Source: Bacteroidota bacterium (GTDB taxonomy: Bacteria; Bacteroidota; Bacteroidia; JABDFU01). From it: 64,000 nt of DNA. The notes beneath the pieces are model-generated. The model had not been told where the DNA came from and did not search any database. It saw nothing but the letters and a program-made list of their open reading frames with translations. The stretch covers positions 1 through 64,000 of the forward strand of contig JACPDY010000093.1 in assembly GCA_016183775.1 (NCBI GenBank). The letters run 5' to 3'. The position numbers and the translations under genes were made by a program. Every line of letters begins with the position of its first letter. Positions within the stretch are counted from its first letter, which is position 1. Shown in pieces: positions 19,989 through 55,266 of this stretch.

Positions 19989-22943
19989 TCATGGCGCCGT
20001 CAGATTCAGATTTACACTACACCCATTTTTATCTTTAATATTTATAATATACGTTCCAGGACAAAGCTGATTTTTGTATCTGTTGGTATATCCATCCGGC
20101 CATAGGTAAGTGTATGGGCTTGTGCCGCCTGTGGCATTTACCAGTATCCATTCCTTGCATCCGCAGCCTGTGCAACTGGCTGTTCCTTTAGTGAATTGCC
20201 CTTCCAAATTGCATGTCACACATTGGGTTGTAGTAATATAACTGTATTTTGTTATACTATCTTTTTTACAAGCTGTTGTAAGCACCAGTTTAACATCATG
20301 GGTACCCATACCGGAAAAAGTAACAGTTGGTTTTACGGAATCTGAAACTGCAGGGCTGCCGCCGGTAAATGTCCAATGAAACTTATATCCTGTGGTATCG
20401 CAGGAGTTGGCTATAGAAGGTGTAAATTTTATCGGCGCATTACTGCATACACTCATAGTACTCGCAGTGTAGTCTAACCCAAGCACCTTGCTTTCGCAAA
20501 TATTAATACATAACTTATCCATAAAAGCATCCCACGTTCCTCCATAGGCTGTTTGGAACGCGCCTGAACTTACCGGATATCCGCCATAAGTAGAGCCGGT
20601 AATGTATAATGAATTACCATAAATGGCAATTGCACCACAACCATTGCTTAACGTTGTAAATTCATAGTCATCATGTCCTGAACCACCGATGTAAGTTATA
20701 CAGCGTTGGTTTCCGCCAGGATCGTATTTTGCTATAAATCCATCTTCCACTCCTCCAAAATTTGGTTGATAGGCACATGAACTTATAGGATAGTTACCAG
20801 CATCTGTATCCTCAAATTCTCCATAAACATATATATTATCGTTTCCATCAGCAGCAAGGCCAATAGGAATTTCCCAGTTACTTCCGCCCAAATAAGTTCC
20901 CCACAGGCGCGTACCTGTTGCGTTAAATTTAACAAGAGCCATGTCTCCCATTGAAACTGATCCGGCATAAACCTGTTGGTAGGCGCCAACTGTTGCAATG
21001 GCATTTCCTGTATTTGAAGAAAATGTATTTAACCCTAAAAGTACGTTGCCGGAAAAATCAGTTGCTATTACTGTCCTCCAGTCTCCGTCAGAAGCAGATC
21101 CACCATAATATGTTGACCATGTCGGAAAACCAGTTACTGGATTAAGGCGACAAAGAAAAGCATCCACGCCTCCGCCTATAGCCGGCTGCGATGCCATAAG
21201 TACAGGGAAATTAACAGAATTTGTTACACCACAAACATATATGTTATTTGCAAAATCAACTGTTATCCCAGAAGCAAAGTCAGATAGTGTGCCACCGTAA
21301 AAAGTCGACCATTGGCGAATGCCTGCATTATTAAATTTAACAATAAAAGCATCTCCTCCGAGATTTGCAATTACAGGCTGATAGGCCGACTGAATTGGAA
21401 AATTGGACGAACGAGCATTGCCTGTAAATATAATATTGTTATTCCCATCGGTAATTATATCAGCACCACCGTCATAATTGCTACCACCATAATAAGTGGA
21501 CCAGATTAAAATTCCTGCCGCTGAAAACTTCGCTACAAAAGCAGTATAATTTGCGACACCAATTGGCGTAAAATTTATAGCCTGCATAAATGCTCCTCCC
21601 CACACTTTAGTTGGGAAATTGCCGGAATGTGTATTTCCGGTAATATAAATATCGTTATTGCCATCGGCATCAATACCGTATGCCTGATCATCATAAGTAC
21701 CTCCTATATAAGAGGCAAAAACAGGAACTCCTGCCGGGTTCATTTTTACAATAAAAGCATCCGATTTACCCCCCAAAACTGCCTGAAAGGCGCCAGCCTG
21801 AACCGGAAAATTCAACGACTTCGTAAACCCGGAGAAAATAGGATTACCAATGTTATCTGTTGTTACAGAAACACCCTGTTCTATATCATTCCCGCCATAA
21901 TAGGTAATCCACATAGCAGGGTCAATAATTAGAGCGTAATCCTCGTTGTAGGCTCCAAGTAGAAAACTTACTTCGTAAGATTTGAAATGATGTGGTTGTT
22001 GTCCAGCCTCTTCATTCATGGTTGCTGCATTGGAGAGAGAGGTAAGTTTATATTCAGTTTTTATGTCTATTATTTGACCATTTATGATTTGGTATACCCT
22101 GGGAATAGATTCGTAAAATTCATTGACACTTGTTTTAATTTTTAACCTGCCTGCCGTCGCCCGGTTCTCGTTATGGAAGCCAGGTTTTCCCTGCCCATCC
22201 GGCAGGTGGACATCCTCAATTGTTAATTCCTCTGCACCTTTCCAGTGTAAAGCTATTTGATTTGGATCTGCATGTGGCTGCACGATGATGTCGTATTTTA
22301 TTCCGGAATTTTTATTGCCATAATAACTTACATCAATATTGTTGTAAATATTTTTGCAGGTTACTTTGTTGTATTGGTGTACGTTGGTAATACCTTGCGG
22401 ACAATGGGCATAATAATAATTGTTGTATCCTTCTGATTCATCTTCGACTGTTGTAGTATAATTAATGTTGCAGTTTGCAAAGTCCATATCTATACGATGC
22501 ACATTTACCTTTGTCTTTTGTAGTAACTCCTGTTTTTTGTTTTGTTGGATAACTTCAGAAACATTTCCGGCATTTCCCAATTCTTCTACTTGCTCATTTA
22601 CTTCGTGCATTACTTCACCCATATTGCTGTATACATAGCTTATGCCGGTTTTGCGCAGGTAAATATCAGCTCCTCCACTATCGCCTTTGTATAATACCTC
22701 CAAAGCCGGTTTGCCATTCATATTGGCTACCTGTCCTTTGTTTGGGGTAAAAGCAATCCCGTTTCCTTTAAGCGATTGGAGGTTTGCCTGCCCGGCGTAC
22801 CCGTCTGGGATTTTAGGCTCAGGGGGATTTCCATGCCCCTTAATATTCTGGGCAGAGCAAGAACCCATGAATAGCATAACCATTAAAGGGCTGAATGTCC
22901 TTTTTACGATACCTATTCTGCTTTTATACCGTGGTTTTATCAT
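19989..22943 (-). CDS. SBBP-repeat surface lipoprotein with PKD and CGCKEW C-terminal domain
   Basis: The N-terminus has a hydrophobic signal ending in a lipobox-like FMGSCSA, so it may be a lipoprotein (Cys at about 29). A DUF7948-like module (about 55-330: GIAFTPNKGQ, YYYAHCPQGITNVHQYNKVT, SGIKYDIIVQPHADP) is followed by about eight SBBP repeats (about 345-770, TYYGG / DAFIVKFN signatures), a PKD-like domain (about 810-905) and the shared terminal domain (CTGCGCKEW ... QLCPG ... NLTAP). About 19 residues near position 255 (LPDGQG ... ATAGR) are absent from the paralogue at 24754 and are encoded by a GC-rich repeat insertion (22147-22213). It is convergent with the 503-residue protein and divergent from its paralogue at 23152. 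Confidence 0.88.
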   Translation of the reverse strand: MIKPRYKSRIGIVKRTFSPLMVMLFMGSCSAQNIKGHGNPPEPKIPDGYAGQANLQSLKGNGIAFTPNKGQVANMNGKPALEVLYKGDSGGADIYLRKTGISYVYSNMGEVMHEVNEQVEELGNAGNVSEVIQQNKKQELLQKTKVNVHRIDMDFANCNINYTTTVEDESEGYNNYYYAHCPQGITNVHQYNKVTCKNIYNNIDVSYYGNKNSGIKYDIIVQPHADPNQIALHWKGAEELTIEDVHLPDGQGKPGFHNENRATAGRLKIKTSVNEFYESIPRVYQIINGQIIDIKTEYKLTSLSNAATMNEEAGQQPHHFKSYEVSFLLGAYNEDYALIIDPAMWITYYGGNDIEQGVSVTTDNIGNPIFSGFTKSLNFPVQAGAFQAVLGGKSDAFIVKMNPAGVPVFASYIGGTYDDQAYGIDADGNNDIYITGNTHSGNFPTKVWGGAFMQAINFTPIGVANYTAFVAKFSAAGILIWSTYYGGSNYDGGADIITDGNNNIIFTGNARSSNFPIQSAYQPVIANLGGDAFIVKFNNAGIRQWSTFYGGTLSDFASGITVDFANNIYVCGVTNSVNFPVLMASQPAIGGGVDAFLCRLNPVTGFPTWSTYYGGSASDGDWRTVIATDFSGNVLLGLNTFSSNTGNAIATVGAYQQVYAGSVSMGDMALVKFNATGTRLWGTYLGGSNWEIPIGLAADGNDNIYVYGEFEDTDAGNYPISSCAYQPNFGGVEDGFIAKYDPGGNQRCITYIGGSGHDDYEFTTLSNGCGAIAIYGNSLYITGSTYGGYPVSSGAFQTAYGGTWDAFMDKLCINICESKVLGLDYTASTMSVCSNAPIKFTPSIANSCDTTGYKFHWTFTGGSPAVSDSVKPTVTFSGMGTHDVKLVLTTACKKDSITKYSYITTTQCVTCNLEGQFTKGTASCTGCGCKEWILVNATGGTSPYTYLWPDGYTNRYKNQLCPGTYIINIKDKNGCSVNLNLTAP
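22147..22213. repeat. GC-rich repeat pair inserted in frame in SBBP protein gene, copy 2
   Basis: ACCTGCCTGCCG at the left and CCGGCAGGTGG at the right bracket about 60 bp that is missing from the homologous position of the 24754 gene. The insert keeps the reading frame, adding about 19 residues. Confidence 0.65.
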
Positions 22944-51427: not shown

Positions 51428-51521
51428 TTTCAAAATGGGCCATTTATACCGTTTAATGTATTGCCGTTTTTAAACAGAAATTCGTATTTTGTATGGATAT
51501 AAAAAATAAAGTGTGACAAGT

Positions 51522-52949
51522 ATGAGCAAAATTAAATTCGGCACAGATGGCTGGAGAGCCATTATTGCCAGAGATTTTACGGTTGAGAATGTAATCCGCG
51601 TTGCGGAAGCAACTGCCGTATGGCTAAAGAAAAATTTTTCGGTTCCTTCAGTTGTTATCGGTCACGATTGCCGCTTTGGCGGAGAATTGTTTGCGGAAAC
51701 TGTTGCTAAAGTAATGGCGGTAAACAATGTGAAAGTATTTTTGGCCAGGGGATTTGTTTCAACACCGATGATATCATTAGGTACAGTGAGGCACAAAGCT
51801 GATGTGGGTATTATTATTACCGCAAGTCATAATCCCCCTTCGTACAATGGCTATAAACTTAAAGGAAGTTACGGAGGTCCCTTATTGCCGGAAAAGGTAC
51901 AGGAAGTGGAGGATTTGATAAAAGATAAATCAACTATTGATATCGAAAAATATTCCCTCCCTGATTTCATCAATGCAAAAAAAATTGAGATCACTGATCT
52001 GGAAGAGATGTATTGTAAGCATGTTGAAGATAATTTTGACCTGGATGCGATCCGTAATTCCGGTTTAAAACTGGCTTACGATGCCATGTATGGCGCGGGG
52101 CAGAATGTGATCAGGCGTTTATTGCCCGATGTAACATTACTGCATTGCGAGTATAATCCGTCGTTTAACGGACAGGCTCCTGAACCTATTCATAAGAACT
52201 TAAAAGAGTTTGCAGAGTTGATTAAAGTCTCGGGAAAACACCTGCCTGCCGGCAGCCAGATTGATTGCGGACTGGCAACGGACGGAGATGCTGATCGCAT
52301 TGGATTGTATGATAAACATGGTAATTTTATCGATTCGCATCATATTATTTTACTTTTAATAAAATATCTTTTTGAGCAGAAGAAAATGACAGGTAAAGTG
52401 GTTACGGCTTTTTCAGTAACTCCCCGTGTTAAACAAATGTGTGAACATTTCGGATTGCCTTACCAGGTTGTAAAAATAGGTTTCAAATATGTTGCCGCCA
52501 TAATGCTGCAGGAAGACGTATTGCTTGGAGGTGAAGAATCAGGAGGGATAGCTATAAAGGGGCATATCCCGGAGCGGGATGGAATCTGGATCGGCTTAAC
52601 TATCTGGGAATATATGGCAAAGTCAGGGAAGTCGCTTGACGACCTGATACAGGAGGTTTACAAAATAACAGGCGCTTTTTCATTTGAACGCTCCGACCTG
52701 CATTTGAAAGAAGATTTGAAAAACACTATTGTGGAAAATTGTAAAAACAACAATTACAAAGCCTTTGGTAAGTATAAAATACAGCGCACCGAGACTATAG
52801 ATGGATATAAATACTTCTTCAGCGATACGGAATGGTTAATGATACGGGCTTCCGGCACAGAACCGATATTACGTAACTATGCCGAAGCCGGAAGCAGCGA
52901 AGCGGCCTTTGCTATTTTAAATGCTGCTGAAAAAACCTTTCTTAATTAA
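51522..52949 (+). CDS. Phosphoglucomutase/phosphomannomutase family protein
   Basis: This alpha-D-phosphohexomutase of about 475 residues is identified by the N-terminal KFGTDGWRAII, the catalytic phosphoserine loop ITASHNPPSYNGYK, the metal loop TDGDADRIGL, the sugar-binding GGEESGGI and the C-terminal phosphate-binding RASGTEPILRNYAE. The ATG at 51522 is preferred over the GTG at 51513. Whether glucose or mannose phosphate is the substrate cannot be told. Residues before the metal loop read HLPAGSQIDCG; the LPAGS part is encoded by a copy of the GC-rich palindrome (52241-52256), an in-frame insertion next to the active site. Confidence 0.92.
   Translation: MSKIKFGTDGWRAIIARDFTVENVIRVAEATAVWLKKNFSVPSVVIGHDCRFGGELFAETVAKVMAVNNVKVFLARGFVSTPMISLGTVRHKADVGIIITASHNPPSYNGYKLKGSYGGPLLPEKVQEVEDLIKDKSTIDIEKYSLPDFINAKKIEITDLEEMYCKHVEDNFDLDAIRNSGLKLAYDAMYGAGQNVIRRLLPDVTLLHCEYNPSFNGQAPEPIHKNLKEFAELIKVSGKHLPAGSQIDCGLATDGDADRIGLYDKHGNFIDSHHIILLLIKYLFEQKKMTGKVVTAFSVTPRVKQMCEHFGLPYQVVKIGFKYVAAIMLQEDVLLGGEESGGIAIKGHIPERDGIWIGLTIWEYMAKSGKSLDDLIQEVYKITGAFSFERSDLHLKEDLKNTIVENCKNNNYKAFGKYKIQRTETIDGYKYFFSDTEWLMIRASGTEPILRNYAEAGSSEAAFAILNAAEKTFLN
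52241..52256. repeat. GC-rich palindrome CCTGCCTGCCGGCAGC, copy 4, within gene
   Basis: Inside the phosphohexomutase gene about 15 codons before the metal-binding loop, keeping the reading frame. Confidence 0.65.
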
Positions 52950-52966: not shown

Positions 52967-52974
52967 TACCTTTG
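52967..52974 (+). promoter_or_regulatory. Candidate -7 box TACCTTTG of the broken tRNA-Arg gene
   Basis: An exact TAnnTTTG match ending 15 bases before the first tRNA base at 52990. The intact tRNA gene at 53425 has the same box with nearly the same spacing. It overlaps the short hairpin GGTAT-TTTTA-ATACC (52956-52970) that follows the phosphohexomutase gene. Confidence 0.45.
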
Positions 52975-52989
52975 CATGAATACAAAAAG

Positions 52990-53040
52990 GGTTCCGTAGC
53001 TCAACTGAATACCTGCCTGCCGGCGGGGAGCATCAGACTA
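52990..53040 (+). pseudogene. tRNA-Arg 5' fragment A, interrupted by GC-rich repeat
   Basis: GGTTCCGTAGCTCAACTGAAT (start at 52990) is the acceptor and D-arm of a tRNA. A 16-17 bp CCTGCCTGCCGGCGGGG insert (copy 5 of the GC-rich palindrome, 53012-53028) follows. Then comes AGCATCAGACTA, matching the next tRNA segment AGCATCTGACTA of fragment B, before the sequence switches to the nuclease gene. No T-arm or 3' half follows. Confidence 0.7.
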
Positions 53041-53046
53041 GAGAAA

Positions 53047-53281
53047 ATGAATTTTTTTGTATATGTTCTTTATAGTATAAGATTTGACAGAATGTATGTT
53101 GGCATGAGTAGGGATGTTGAGAATCGTTTGAATTAACATAATTCAGGTAAAACAAAATCTACAAAAGGAAGAGTTTTCTAGTCGGGTTGAAGCCAGAAAT
53201 CGTGAAGTTTATTTAAAGAGTGGAATAGGAAGAGAATATATTAAGAGTTTTACAAAAGGGTTCCGTAGCTCAACTGAATAG
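53047..53281 (+). pseudogene. Decayed GIY-YIG nuclease gene ending inside a tRNA gene
   Basis: MNFFVYVLYSIRFDRMYVGM is the GIY-YIG family N-terminus (YVLYS ... YVGMS), followed by RDVENRLN. The frame then meets TAA where the family has Glu, and continues HNSGKTKSTKGRVF. About 20 residues appear deleted. A different frame carries the family's C-terminal part VEARNREVYLKSGIGREYIK, then SFTKGFRSSTE. The last residues are encoded by the 5' end of tRNA fragment B, and the stop TAG is in the tRNA D-loop. One nonsense change plus a frame-breaking deletion makes the gene inactive. GIY-YIG enzymes of this small type are single-domain endonucleases. Confidence 0.75.
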
Positions 53282-53298
53282 AGCATCTGACTACGGAT
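53259..53298 (+). pseudogene. tRNA-Arg 5' fragment B, truncated after the anticodon loop
   Basis: GGTTCCGTAGCTCAACTGAA (53259-53278) repeats fragment A exactly, with the flanking TACAAAAGG also shared. It continues through TAGAGCATCTGACTACGGAT, i.e. the D-arm, 5' anticodon stem TCTGA and loop CTACGGA (anticodon ACG). The matching 3' stem TCAGA and the T-arm are missing, so no functional tRNA can form. Confidence 0.72.
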
Positions 53299-53402
53299 GT
53301 TAATGTAGTATCCTCTGTTCGCCTTTAAAATCAAGGTGTTCAGAAATCGAAGGTAAGTATTTGCAAGCAATTTGCAAGCACTTAGAAGATTTATAAAATT
53401 GA

Positions 53403-53424: not shown

Positions 53425-53498
53425 GCACTCGTAGCTTAACTGGATGAAGCACATGGCTACGGACCATGAGATTGGGGGTTCGAATCCCTCCGAGTGCA
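53425..53498 (+). tRNA. tRNA-Arg (anticodon ACG)
   Basis: A full cloverleaf can be drawn. The acceptor is GCACTCG / CGAGTGC, D-stem GCTT / AAGC, anticodon stem CATGG / CCATG with loop CTACGGA (anticodon ACG at 53459-53461), variable loop AGATT, T-stem GGGGG / CCCTC with loop TTCGAAT, and discriminator A at 53498. CCA is not encoded. It has a different acceptor stem from the broken tRNA-Arg upstream, so it is a separate gene with the same anticodon. A strong terminator follows. Confidence 0.93.
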
Positions 53499-53501
53499 CT
53501 T

Positions 53502-53712: not shown

Positions 53713-55266
53713 CTACTTTTTAATTGTAGCCACTGGAGTTCCTTTGAGGCTTTCTTTTACGAGGTAAGCTATAAATTTCGCAAACGCTTCTATGTTTTGG
53801 TCAACACTTGCTTTTTCGAGTGCTGCCATATACGTTTTACGTTCTTCAACAGGAATTACCGTCCAGGGATATCCGCCCGATGCCAACATTACATTCATTA
53901 AAAACCTTCCAATTCGGCCATTACCATCCACGTAGGGATGTATAAATACAAATATAAAATGTCCCAAGACGGCTCTTACAGAAGCCTCAGACTCATTCTC
54001 CAATAGTTCAAAGAGTGTCGGCATTACATCACGAACAGCATCTTTATTAAGAGGGACGTGCTTTGATCCGCCTATATATACCTGGCTATTTCTGTAACCA
54101 GCCAGATCAGATGCCTTCAATATACCAGCAGCTACGCTTGGAGCAAAAAGCTCCCTGTACCATTCTCCATGACCTGTATCTGCAACTTTACCGGAGTTTT
54201 TTCCATTGAGTATTTTTGTAATACTGTCCCTTACTTTTTGAGTAGCCTGCCAATAGCCCCTGGCAGCCATAGCATCTCTTTGTTTTTTATCTTCCTTGTT
54301 TTTAACTGCATCCCACGCTCCGCTGCGTACACGTTCAATCAATTCCGGTGTAACTCTATATTGCTCTATTGATAATGAGTGATAAGCATCCGTTACATAT
54401 ATTTCCTCCACAAGTTTCATGTATTTTTCATGATTTTTGGGAAGTCCGGGAGCTTTAGGAAAATGTTTAATAATAACAGTCCTCATTTCATGCCACATTA
54501 AACGTACCCTGTTTACATAAGGCGATTTTTCTCTGGCTGACAATACAATCGGAGTGGTAGTTTCAAACGGATCTATTTCTCGTACATCATAATCTGCCTT
54601 TTGCATGGTACTTAAAATATCGTTGGCAATTCTTTCCTGCCCGATATTCCGAAAAGCACCGGCAAGTCGCCCGGCAATTTTACTGTGTCCGCCATCCAGA
54701 AGCAAGCCGAGTATTTCAGACGAATCCCTGATCATAGCAAGTGCCGTTCGAACATCCGTTGGATTTTTAGTAAACATGGTTGGTGTGCAGTGAATGAGGG
54801 CTGATGGCAATGTTAACATTCGGATTCCTTCTATCACTACAATTTCTGCTGCTTCCGGCAAAGGAGACTTCATGCTGAATAAAGATGTTCCATATGGCAA
54901 TGGGGTAGCAGAGTTTGTTACACTTTTTGATCTTACAATAAGTTGATGTGGTACTGTCCAATTGCCCGAATGTATTTGTAATGATTGTTCAGCTGATATA
55001 CAGTAGAAATCACCATACCTGTCAGCTAAATATCTTGAACAAAAATGCCAATATGATGCATACCAGGAAGTACTGTCACCTTGTTGTTCATAGGAAGGTA
55101 CCGTTATATACCATCCCTTGACAACTTCTTTAAGAAACCCGTTCTTCAATAGACGTTGTCTGTGAACGCGACTTAATTCAGATACATTGATAGCCATGAT
55201 TTCCTGATCTTGAAGCACTTTAAGCGCTTCAAGTGATTCTGCTAATTTTTCGCTTGGTGTTGCCAT
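53713..55266 (-). CDS. Fic (AMPylase) protein with AbiEi-like N-terminal domain
   Basis: Residues about 15-230 look like an AbiEi-type antitoxin: a small winged helix (SRVHRQRLLKNGFLKEVVKGWYIT) followed by the alpha/beta domain (ISAEQSLQIHSGNWTVPHQ). Residues about 240-517 are a Fic domain with the active-site motif HPYVDGNGRIGR (443-454). A class II-type inhibitory helix (SLSIE, 297-301, resembling SSxIEG) places the regulatory Glu before the core. Fic enzymes transfer AMP or similar groups to protein hydroxyls. The N-terminal half may bind the gene's own promoter, where three repeats are phased at 24 bp (55276-55370). It heads the accessory island downstream of the tRNA and may be a self-contained toxin-antitoxin or host-interaction factor. 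Confidence 0.86.
   Translation of the reverse strand: MATPSEKLAESLEALKVLQDQEIMAINVSELSRVHRQRLLKNGFLKEVVKGWYITVPSYEQQGDSTSWYASYWHFCSRYLADRYGDFYCISAEQSLQIHSGNWTVPHQLIVRSKSVTNSATPLPYGTSLFSMKSPLPEAAEIVVIEGIRMLTLPSALIHCTPTMFTKNPTDVRTALAMIRDSSEILGLLLDGGHSKIAGRLAGAFRNIGQERIANDILSTMQKADYDVREIDPFETTTPIVLSAREKSPYVNRVRLMWHEMRTVIIKHFPKAPGLPKNHEKYMKLVEEIYVTDAYHSLSIEQYRVTPELIERVRSGAWDAVKNKEDKKQRDAMAARGYWQATQKVRDSITKILNGKNSGKVADTGHGEWYRELFAPSVAAGILKASDLAGYRNSQVYIGGSKHVPLNKDAVRDVMPTLFELLENESEASVRAVLGHFIFVFIHPYVDGNGRIGRFLMNVMLASGGYPWTVIPVEERKTYMAALEKASVDQNIEAFAKFIAYLVKESLKGTPVATIKK

Follow-up and report, generated by a model that had tools for sequence, protein, structure and literature searches.

A decayed GIY-YIG nuclease gene between partial copies of a bacterial tRNA-Arg gene: a putative minimal selfish element with relatives at tRNA genes of many isotypes

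By analogy, the closest precedent for the locus described here is SegB of phages T4 and T6, a free-standing GIY-YIG nuclease whose gene adjoins tRNA genes. The T6 enzyme cleaves tRNA genes internally at RAWTSGAAC, a motif complementary to the T-loop sequence GTTCSAWTY (PMC13096335), and SegB is required for the tandem amplification of the tRNA together with its own gene (PMC13096335; PMC2988022). SegB, however, is phage-borne and situated between clustered tRNA genes, and neither a rebuilt tRNA nor a partial tRNA copy broken by a palindrome is reported for it in these accounts; the family considered here, in contrast, is chromosomal, encodes proteins of about 80 aa, and is associated with 14 tRNA isotypes in several phyla. 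The best sequence and fold matches of its proteins are to the UPF0213/Slx1-like proteins (e.g., BH0048 and EF2693), which are likewise single-domain proteins of ~80–100 aa but have no link to tRNA genes in the literature searched. Fusion to a TrmH tRNA methylase occurs in some of the bacterial Slx1-like GIY-YIG proteins, and it is solely via this fusion that a survey of the GIY-YIG superfamily mentions tRNA (PMC1564403).

Several other systems share individual features with the present one. Group I introns with homing endonucleases in bacterial tRNA genes are likewise selfish DNA that leaves the tRNA functional, but in the present case the tRNA is restored through a duplicated part rather than by splicing, and no intron family was detected at the studied locus with Rfam. 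Integrative and conjugative elements (ICEs) and prophages with tRNA attachment sites also insert at tRNA genes and restore one end, but these are large and possess an integrase and short att repeats, whereas the units described below are 300–450 bp in length and carry a nuclease only. REP/RAYT systems resemble them in the association of a small nuclease gene with palindromes; however, RAYTs are HUH-type enzymes (Y1 transposases) found outside tRNA genes, whereas the present enzyme belongs to the GIY-YIG fold and is followed by tRNA isotype and not by palindrome.

The locus in question lies in a 64,000-nucleotide stretch of a Bacteroidota genome (hereafter the window), downstream of a phosphoglucomutase-like gene (Table 1). 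An earlier note, made from the letters of the window alone, had claimed that the 5′ end of a tRNA-Arg gene is repeated there exactly over at least 22 bases; the exact direct repeat in fact spans 27 nt (52985–53011 and 53254–53280, spacing 269 bp) and represents the 5′ end of tRNA-Arg-ACG, with tRNA starts at 52990 and 53259. As a control for chance, even an 18-mer was common to just 8 of 2000 random neighbouring stretches of the window. The flank said to be shared by the two copies is near-identical and not exactly so (ACAAAAAGG vs ACAAAAGG). Likewise, the description of the copies as duplicated 5′ halves holds for copy B, which keeps only the 5′ half, and not for copy A, which is interrupted in the D-loop by a 16-nt palindrome, a feature that the note had missed, and then resumes as GAGCATCAGACTA. 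Over its first ~40 nt, the tRNA agrees with the intact tRNA-Arg-ACG that two same-genus genomes carry at the orthologous position. No tRNA was called at copy B by either ARAGORN or Rfam.

Table 1. Features of the tRNA-Arg locus in the window
Feature	Coordinates	Strand	Remarks
Phosphoglucomutase/phosphomannomutase-type gene (named by sequence)	51513..52949	+	ORF of 478 aa; syntenic anchor
TACCTTTG, putative promoter element of the original tRNA gene, now 5′ of copy A	52967..52974	+	Equivalent in L210
Copy A: 5′ part of tRNA-Arg-ACG with palindrome in the D-loop	52990..53040	+	
GC-rich inserted palindrome CCTGCCTGCCGGCGGG, 16 nt, after tRNA position 22	53012..53027	+	Alignment to empty-site tRNA
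GIY-YIG pseudogene, N-terminal piece (MNFFVYVLYSIRFDRMYVGMSRDVENRLN*)	53047..53136	+	Ends at TAA 53134–53136
GIY-YIG pseudogene, C-terminal piece, other frame (...SRVEARNREVYLKSGIGREYIKSFTKGFRSSTE*)	53159..53281	+	Ends at copy B tRNA positions 21–23
Copy B: rebuilt 5′ half of tRNA-Arg-ACG (acceptor strand, D-arm, anticodon 5′ arm and loop)	53259..53298	+	
Decayed 3′ half of copy B, without T-arm match	53299..53345	+	
Intact tRNA-Arg-ACG with a different acceptor stem	53425..53499	+	Rfam, 64.7 bits

Between the two copies, the homology to GIY-YIG nucleases postulated in the note is borne out by a match to Pfam PF01541 (E = 2.5e-8, with both pieces joined and an X at the stop), but the open reading frame it had assumed is not there: the gene is broken by a TAA codon, a frame change, and further stops, and since its N-terminal part halts at the TAA and its C-terminal part (53159–53251 being 84% identical to query residues 39–69) lies in another frame, it is a pseudogene. 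As had been noted, its last residues (SFTKGFRSSTE) and stop codon (TAG, 53279–53281) are encoded by the tRNA sequence of copy B. Both of the same-genus genomes mentioned above have the site in an empty state, with an ortholog of the anchor gene (85% and 81% identical) followed directly by a single intact tRNA-Arg-ACG and no GIY-YIG gene in the examined flanks. In one of these alleles (L210), TAATACCTTTG occupies the position 5′ of the intact tRNA equivalent to that of TACCTTTG, which we take to be a Bacteroidota −7-like promoter element. Because this promoter-like element sits 5′ of copy A, as it does at the empty site, copy A is the old 5′ end and copy B the rebuilt one. The only intact tRNA-Arg-ACG in the window departs from that of its genus in the acceptor stem and is unmatched in the five same-genus genomes searched, all of them incomplete, its best match (89%) being from another family; it was possibly acquired from elsewhere. 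The window locus is likely to hold a decayed copy of a tiny (300–450 base) selfish gene residing in bacterial tRNA genes, with a hairpin-broken tRNA fragment to one side of it and an intact tRNA to the other.

Relatives of this gene recur at tRNA genes, as the note had suggested checking. With the window protein alone as query against a sample of 295 genomes of its class, we recovered relatives at 13 places in 12 other genomes, and in 12 of the 13 cases (all but L056) the place is a tRNA gene or a fragment of one. A profile of 15 such proteins, which is biased to the tRNA type, matched 214 of 395 genomes, and 115 regions were retrieved. Across the genomes of the class, a tRNA gene lies within 400 bp of 100 of the 118 related GIY-YIG loci, the nearest tRNA being on the same strand in every case; most of the loci beyond this distance hold tRNA pieces on one or both sides, except for four without them (L144, L158, L163, and L180). 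A less biased, single-protein scan of named genomes, with some loci in Patescibacteria, Omnitrophota, and Ignavibacteria, placed 40 of 43 loci at tRNA genes, again all on the same strand. A recount that accepted any tRNA within 400 bp, instead of the nearest, yielded 136 loci, one of them on the opposite strand, with 26 isoacceptors and 14 isotypes in use. When all PF01541 matches were surveyed in six genomes chosen regardless of tRNA, about nine places were tRNA-linked, and UvrC and a repeat-flanked class of GIY-YIG genes were without such linkage. These counts indicate a widespread family of tRNA-associated GIY-YIG genes, whose other copies number well above one hundred and span several bacterial phyla.

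An intact unit of this family measures 300–450 bp and combines a partial tRNA copy, in most cases interrupted by a GC-rich palindrome within one of its loops, a gene for the ~80-aa nuclease, and an intact tRNA. In the 5′ type the order is promoter, partial tRNA copy, ORF, and intact tRNA, with the original promoter remaining beside the dead 5′ copy; in the 3′ type it is intact tRNA, terminator-bearing flank, ORF, and partial 3′ copy, with the 3′ part of the tRNA and the terminator-bearing flank duplicated around the gene. The insertion on the 5′ side proposed from the window thus describes the 5′ type and fails as a general rule, about two-thirds of the elements being on the 3′ side. Similarly, a C-terminus encoded by the tRNA is a property of some 5′-type units only: their ORF stop falls mostly between −23 and +11 nt relative to the tRNA start and within the tRNA in 25 of 64; in four other tRNA-Arg loci it is again 23 nt into the tRNA as in the window. 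Some units adjoin only a tRNA fragment (L095, L149, and L154). Tandem arrays of up to 10 units are common, such as the ten 457-bp units beside a tRNA-Met in genome G110, where eight of nine successive periods are identical base for base, and the eight units of ~365 bp in genome G165. Beside a tRNA-Met in a further genome from the genus of G110 (L221; G199:C21), palindrome-tagged tRNA 3′ fragments occur as repeated units, each of a T-arm with the palindrome TCCCGATAGCTATCGGGA and a terminator, and no GIY-YIG gene is found as far as the contig end.

We aligned 81 partial copies (55 of the 3′ type and 26 of the 5′ type) from the side of the ORF opposite the intact tRNA. A strictly defined GC-rich perfect palindrome, a definition that misses imperfect ones, is present in 60 of these (74%). 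Among control windows the share is 5.4%, and among the 81 intact tRNAs only 2 contain one; this enrichment speaks against palindromes as neutral background. The insertions are concentrated at positions of the D-, anticodon/variable-, and T-loops, mainly after tRNA positions 12–26 in the 5′ type and 36–70 in the 3′ type, and several partial copies hold two or more palindromes. Related palindromes are also present at other points of the window, unaccompanied by a nuclease: a CCTGCCTGCCGGCAGG-type one at 52241–52260 lies within the phosphoglucomutase-like gene, where it reads LPAGSQ, and another is at 2345–2364.

The protein (82 aa) was confidently modeled (pLDDT 90.8) as a single GIY-YIG fold with a short C-terminal helix. 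Among 28 relatives, the catalytic-type residues (Y, Y-x-G, R, H, and K) are invariant and E is nearly so. It is closest to UPF0213 BH0048, Slx1, and I-TevI: the best sequence matches are to BH0048 and EF2693 (E = 1.9e-10 and 4.6e-10), the top fold match has E = 1.4e-3, and the TIGR01453 model (group I intron endonuclease) is matched by 26 of the 28 relatives, with one member shown falling below the cut-off. Purifying selection on the nuclease is indicated by a median dN/dS of 0.14 across 32 pairs, many of which come from a single array. In a tree built on 77 columns, with many forks unresolved, tRNA isotype needs 32 changes (61 when shuffled, at the lowest 55), host family 77 (85 when shuffled, at the lowest 80), and the side of the tRNA 23 (29 when shuffled, at the lowest 22); moreover, the same nuclease clades are found 5′ or 3′ of the same isotype. 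The enzyme thus follows tRNA isotype, and host and side only weakly, which suggests that its target lies within the tRNA gene itself, making the tRNA the likely target of the nuclease.

Empty tRNA loci, whose comparison the note had also proposed, were found at the window site and, in another genus, at a tRNA-Leu-CAA gene. Of the species compared at the latter, two carry the unit, one has a decayed version of it, and five have an empty site. An intact nuclease at tRNA-Leu-CAA is, for example, that of Algoriphagus kandeliae (L238). Comparison of these alleles shows the unit to be present or absent at one tRNA locus among related species. Within this genus, the first ~45 nt of the intact tRNA are identical in the filled and most empty alleles, so that this half of the tRNA, which the element copies, has no protective mutation in the filled alleles; immunity through mutation of the intact tRNA was thus not seen in the 5′ half.

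We propose that these genes are probably chromosomal, homing-like, nuclease-only selfish elements that target tRNA genes. The nuclease would cut inside tRNA genes of its isotype, and repair of the break from an element-bearing allele would copy in the gene along with the tRNA part that restores a working tRNA. The palindrome-broken copy would then be a poor target and recombine poorly with the intact copy, and tandem arrays could arise from repeated rounds or from recombination between units. In the window, the nuclease has decayed and the rebuilt tRNA-Arg has lost its 3′ half, with the neighboring tRNA-Arg-ACG probably having taken over its role. The 300–450 bp units contain the GIY-YIG ORF alone, with no integrase or recombinase. 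Of the possible vehicles, plasmids gave no match and phages just three weak ones, and both were set aside in that role. The central idea of the note, a nuclease that inserts at a tRNA gene and rebuilds the tRNA, is thus supported, with the cutting and insertion themselves inferred.

Among other explanations, the most serious, though unlikely in our estimate, is that the GIY-YIG protein mobilizes palindromes in the manner of RAYT/REP systems, the tRNA fragments being mere landing places for both. The high frequency of palindromes in the partial copies, including several in one copy, the existence of a sister GIY-YIG class between inverted REP-like repeats (see below), and the palindrome inside a coding gene of the window would all fit this idea; yet a single nuclease clade is accompanied by several different palindromes, and what the tree preserves is the tRNA isotype. 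Further, GIY-YIG enzymes are hydrolytic and are not known to perform strand transfer. Somewhat more improbable is neutral hitchhiking, whereby break-prone tRNA genes undergo partial duplication and a GIY-YIG gene mobilized by other means is tolerated in their flanks without any tRNA-directed cutting. Bacterial tRNA genes often serve as insertion sites, and the units that adjoin a tRNA fragment only could be explained in this way, but the strict same-strand order, the close fusion of the ORF to the tRNA, as seen from the confined position of its stop in the 5′ type, the isotype-ordered tree, and the small units devoid of an integrase are hard to reconcile with passive tolerance.

We judge it more improbable still that the unit acts on the tRNA itself, with the nuclease cleaving or processing RNA or controlling the tRNA as part of a regulatory, toxin-like, or defense module. 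Such a role would accord with the presence of nuclease and tRNA on one strand, with the promoter upstream of both in the 5′ type, and with the TrmH-fused Slx1-like proteins, which have been read as pointing to RNA metabolism (PMC1564403). A selfish element nevertheless better explains the patchy presence, the decay to pseudogenes, the identical units in arrays, and the existence of empty alleles, and matches to defense-gene models (PADLOC) were only weak, which led us to reject a defense module. Lastly, the window alone, its gene being dead, could not distinguish the proposed element from a tRNA 5′ half that had been tandemly duplicated by chance on either side of a GIY-YIG relic unrelated to it. 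The note had named simple tandem duplication without the nuclease as the outcome that would count against it; recurrence at over a hundred loci, the same structure at 14 isotypes, the isotype-ordered tree, and the existence of an empty site make this explanation exceedingly improbable.

The selfish-element reading thus stands as the favored one, and in three respects the element resembles a free-standing homing endonuclease gene: it encodes the catalytic domain of a homing-endonuclease superfamily (GIY-YIG) with conserved active-site residues, its inheritance is at odds with the host tree and tied to the target, and it shows a present/absent polymorphism at a conserved site. We nevertheless withhold membership in that class, because the 82-aa protein as modeled has no separate C-terminal DNA-binding region of the I-TevI kind and because the cutting is inferred. 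GIY-YIG genes that duplicate and rebuild chromosomal tRNA genes of bacteria are undescribed in the open-licence literature searched, and the family is likely, but not certainly, new. A bolder proposal, which we offer only tentatively, is that these are autonomous mini-elements of a new class, for which a one-domain nuclease and a tRNA-derived segment might suffice: the element would duplicate a tRNA end, mark the dead copy with a palindrome, and rebuild the tRNA, having diversified into many isotype-specific lineages across phyla, and gene-less tagged fragments such as L221 may be its non-autonomous, SINE-like offspring.

If the selfish reading is correct, many Bacteroidota and other bacteria would host hidden selfish genes within tRNA genes, the most essential of their RNA genes, under an annotation that usually says no more than small GIY-YIG protein. 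In size they would rank with the smallest known selfish elements. Their nucleases would form a naturally occurring set, each matched to certain tRNA genes, and their activity would account for the partial duplications that tRNA genes repeatedly show, for some pseudo-tRNAs, and perhaps for turnover of tRNA genes. They would also extend the SegB-type logic of cutting tRNA genes and amplifying tRNA with nuclease from phage to bacterial chromosomes. Because close relatives differ in having filled or empty alleles, the cutting can be tested directly.

Our searches also brought up two further classes of small GIY-YIG genes. The members of one (L001, L005, L275, L286, L288, and L294) are flanked by inverted REP-like repeats (e.g., GTCATTGCGAGCGAAGCGAAGCAATC) and not by tRNA, with scores above all shuffles; two of them (L001 and L005) are in the window's own genome, and this class is possibly a counterpart of the RAYT/REP systems. 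The other (L144, L158, L163, L180, and L056) has short CCCCGTAGGAT/ATCCTACGGGG-like ends near the ORF, with scores near or slightly above the best shuffles. In the window itself, an ORF of 517 aa on the minus strand (53713–55266) with the Fic-like motif HPYVDGNGRIGRF adjoins the tRNA, and a long exact direct repeat of at least 45 bases occurs at 20089 and 32831, 12.7 kb apart.
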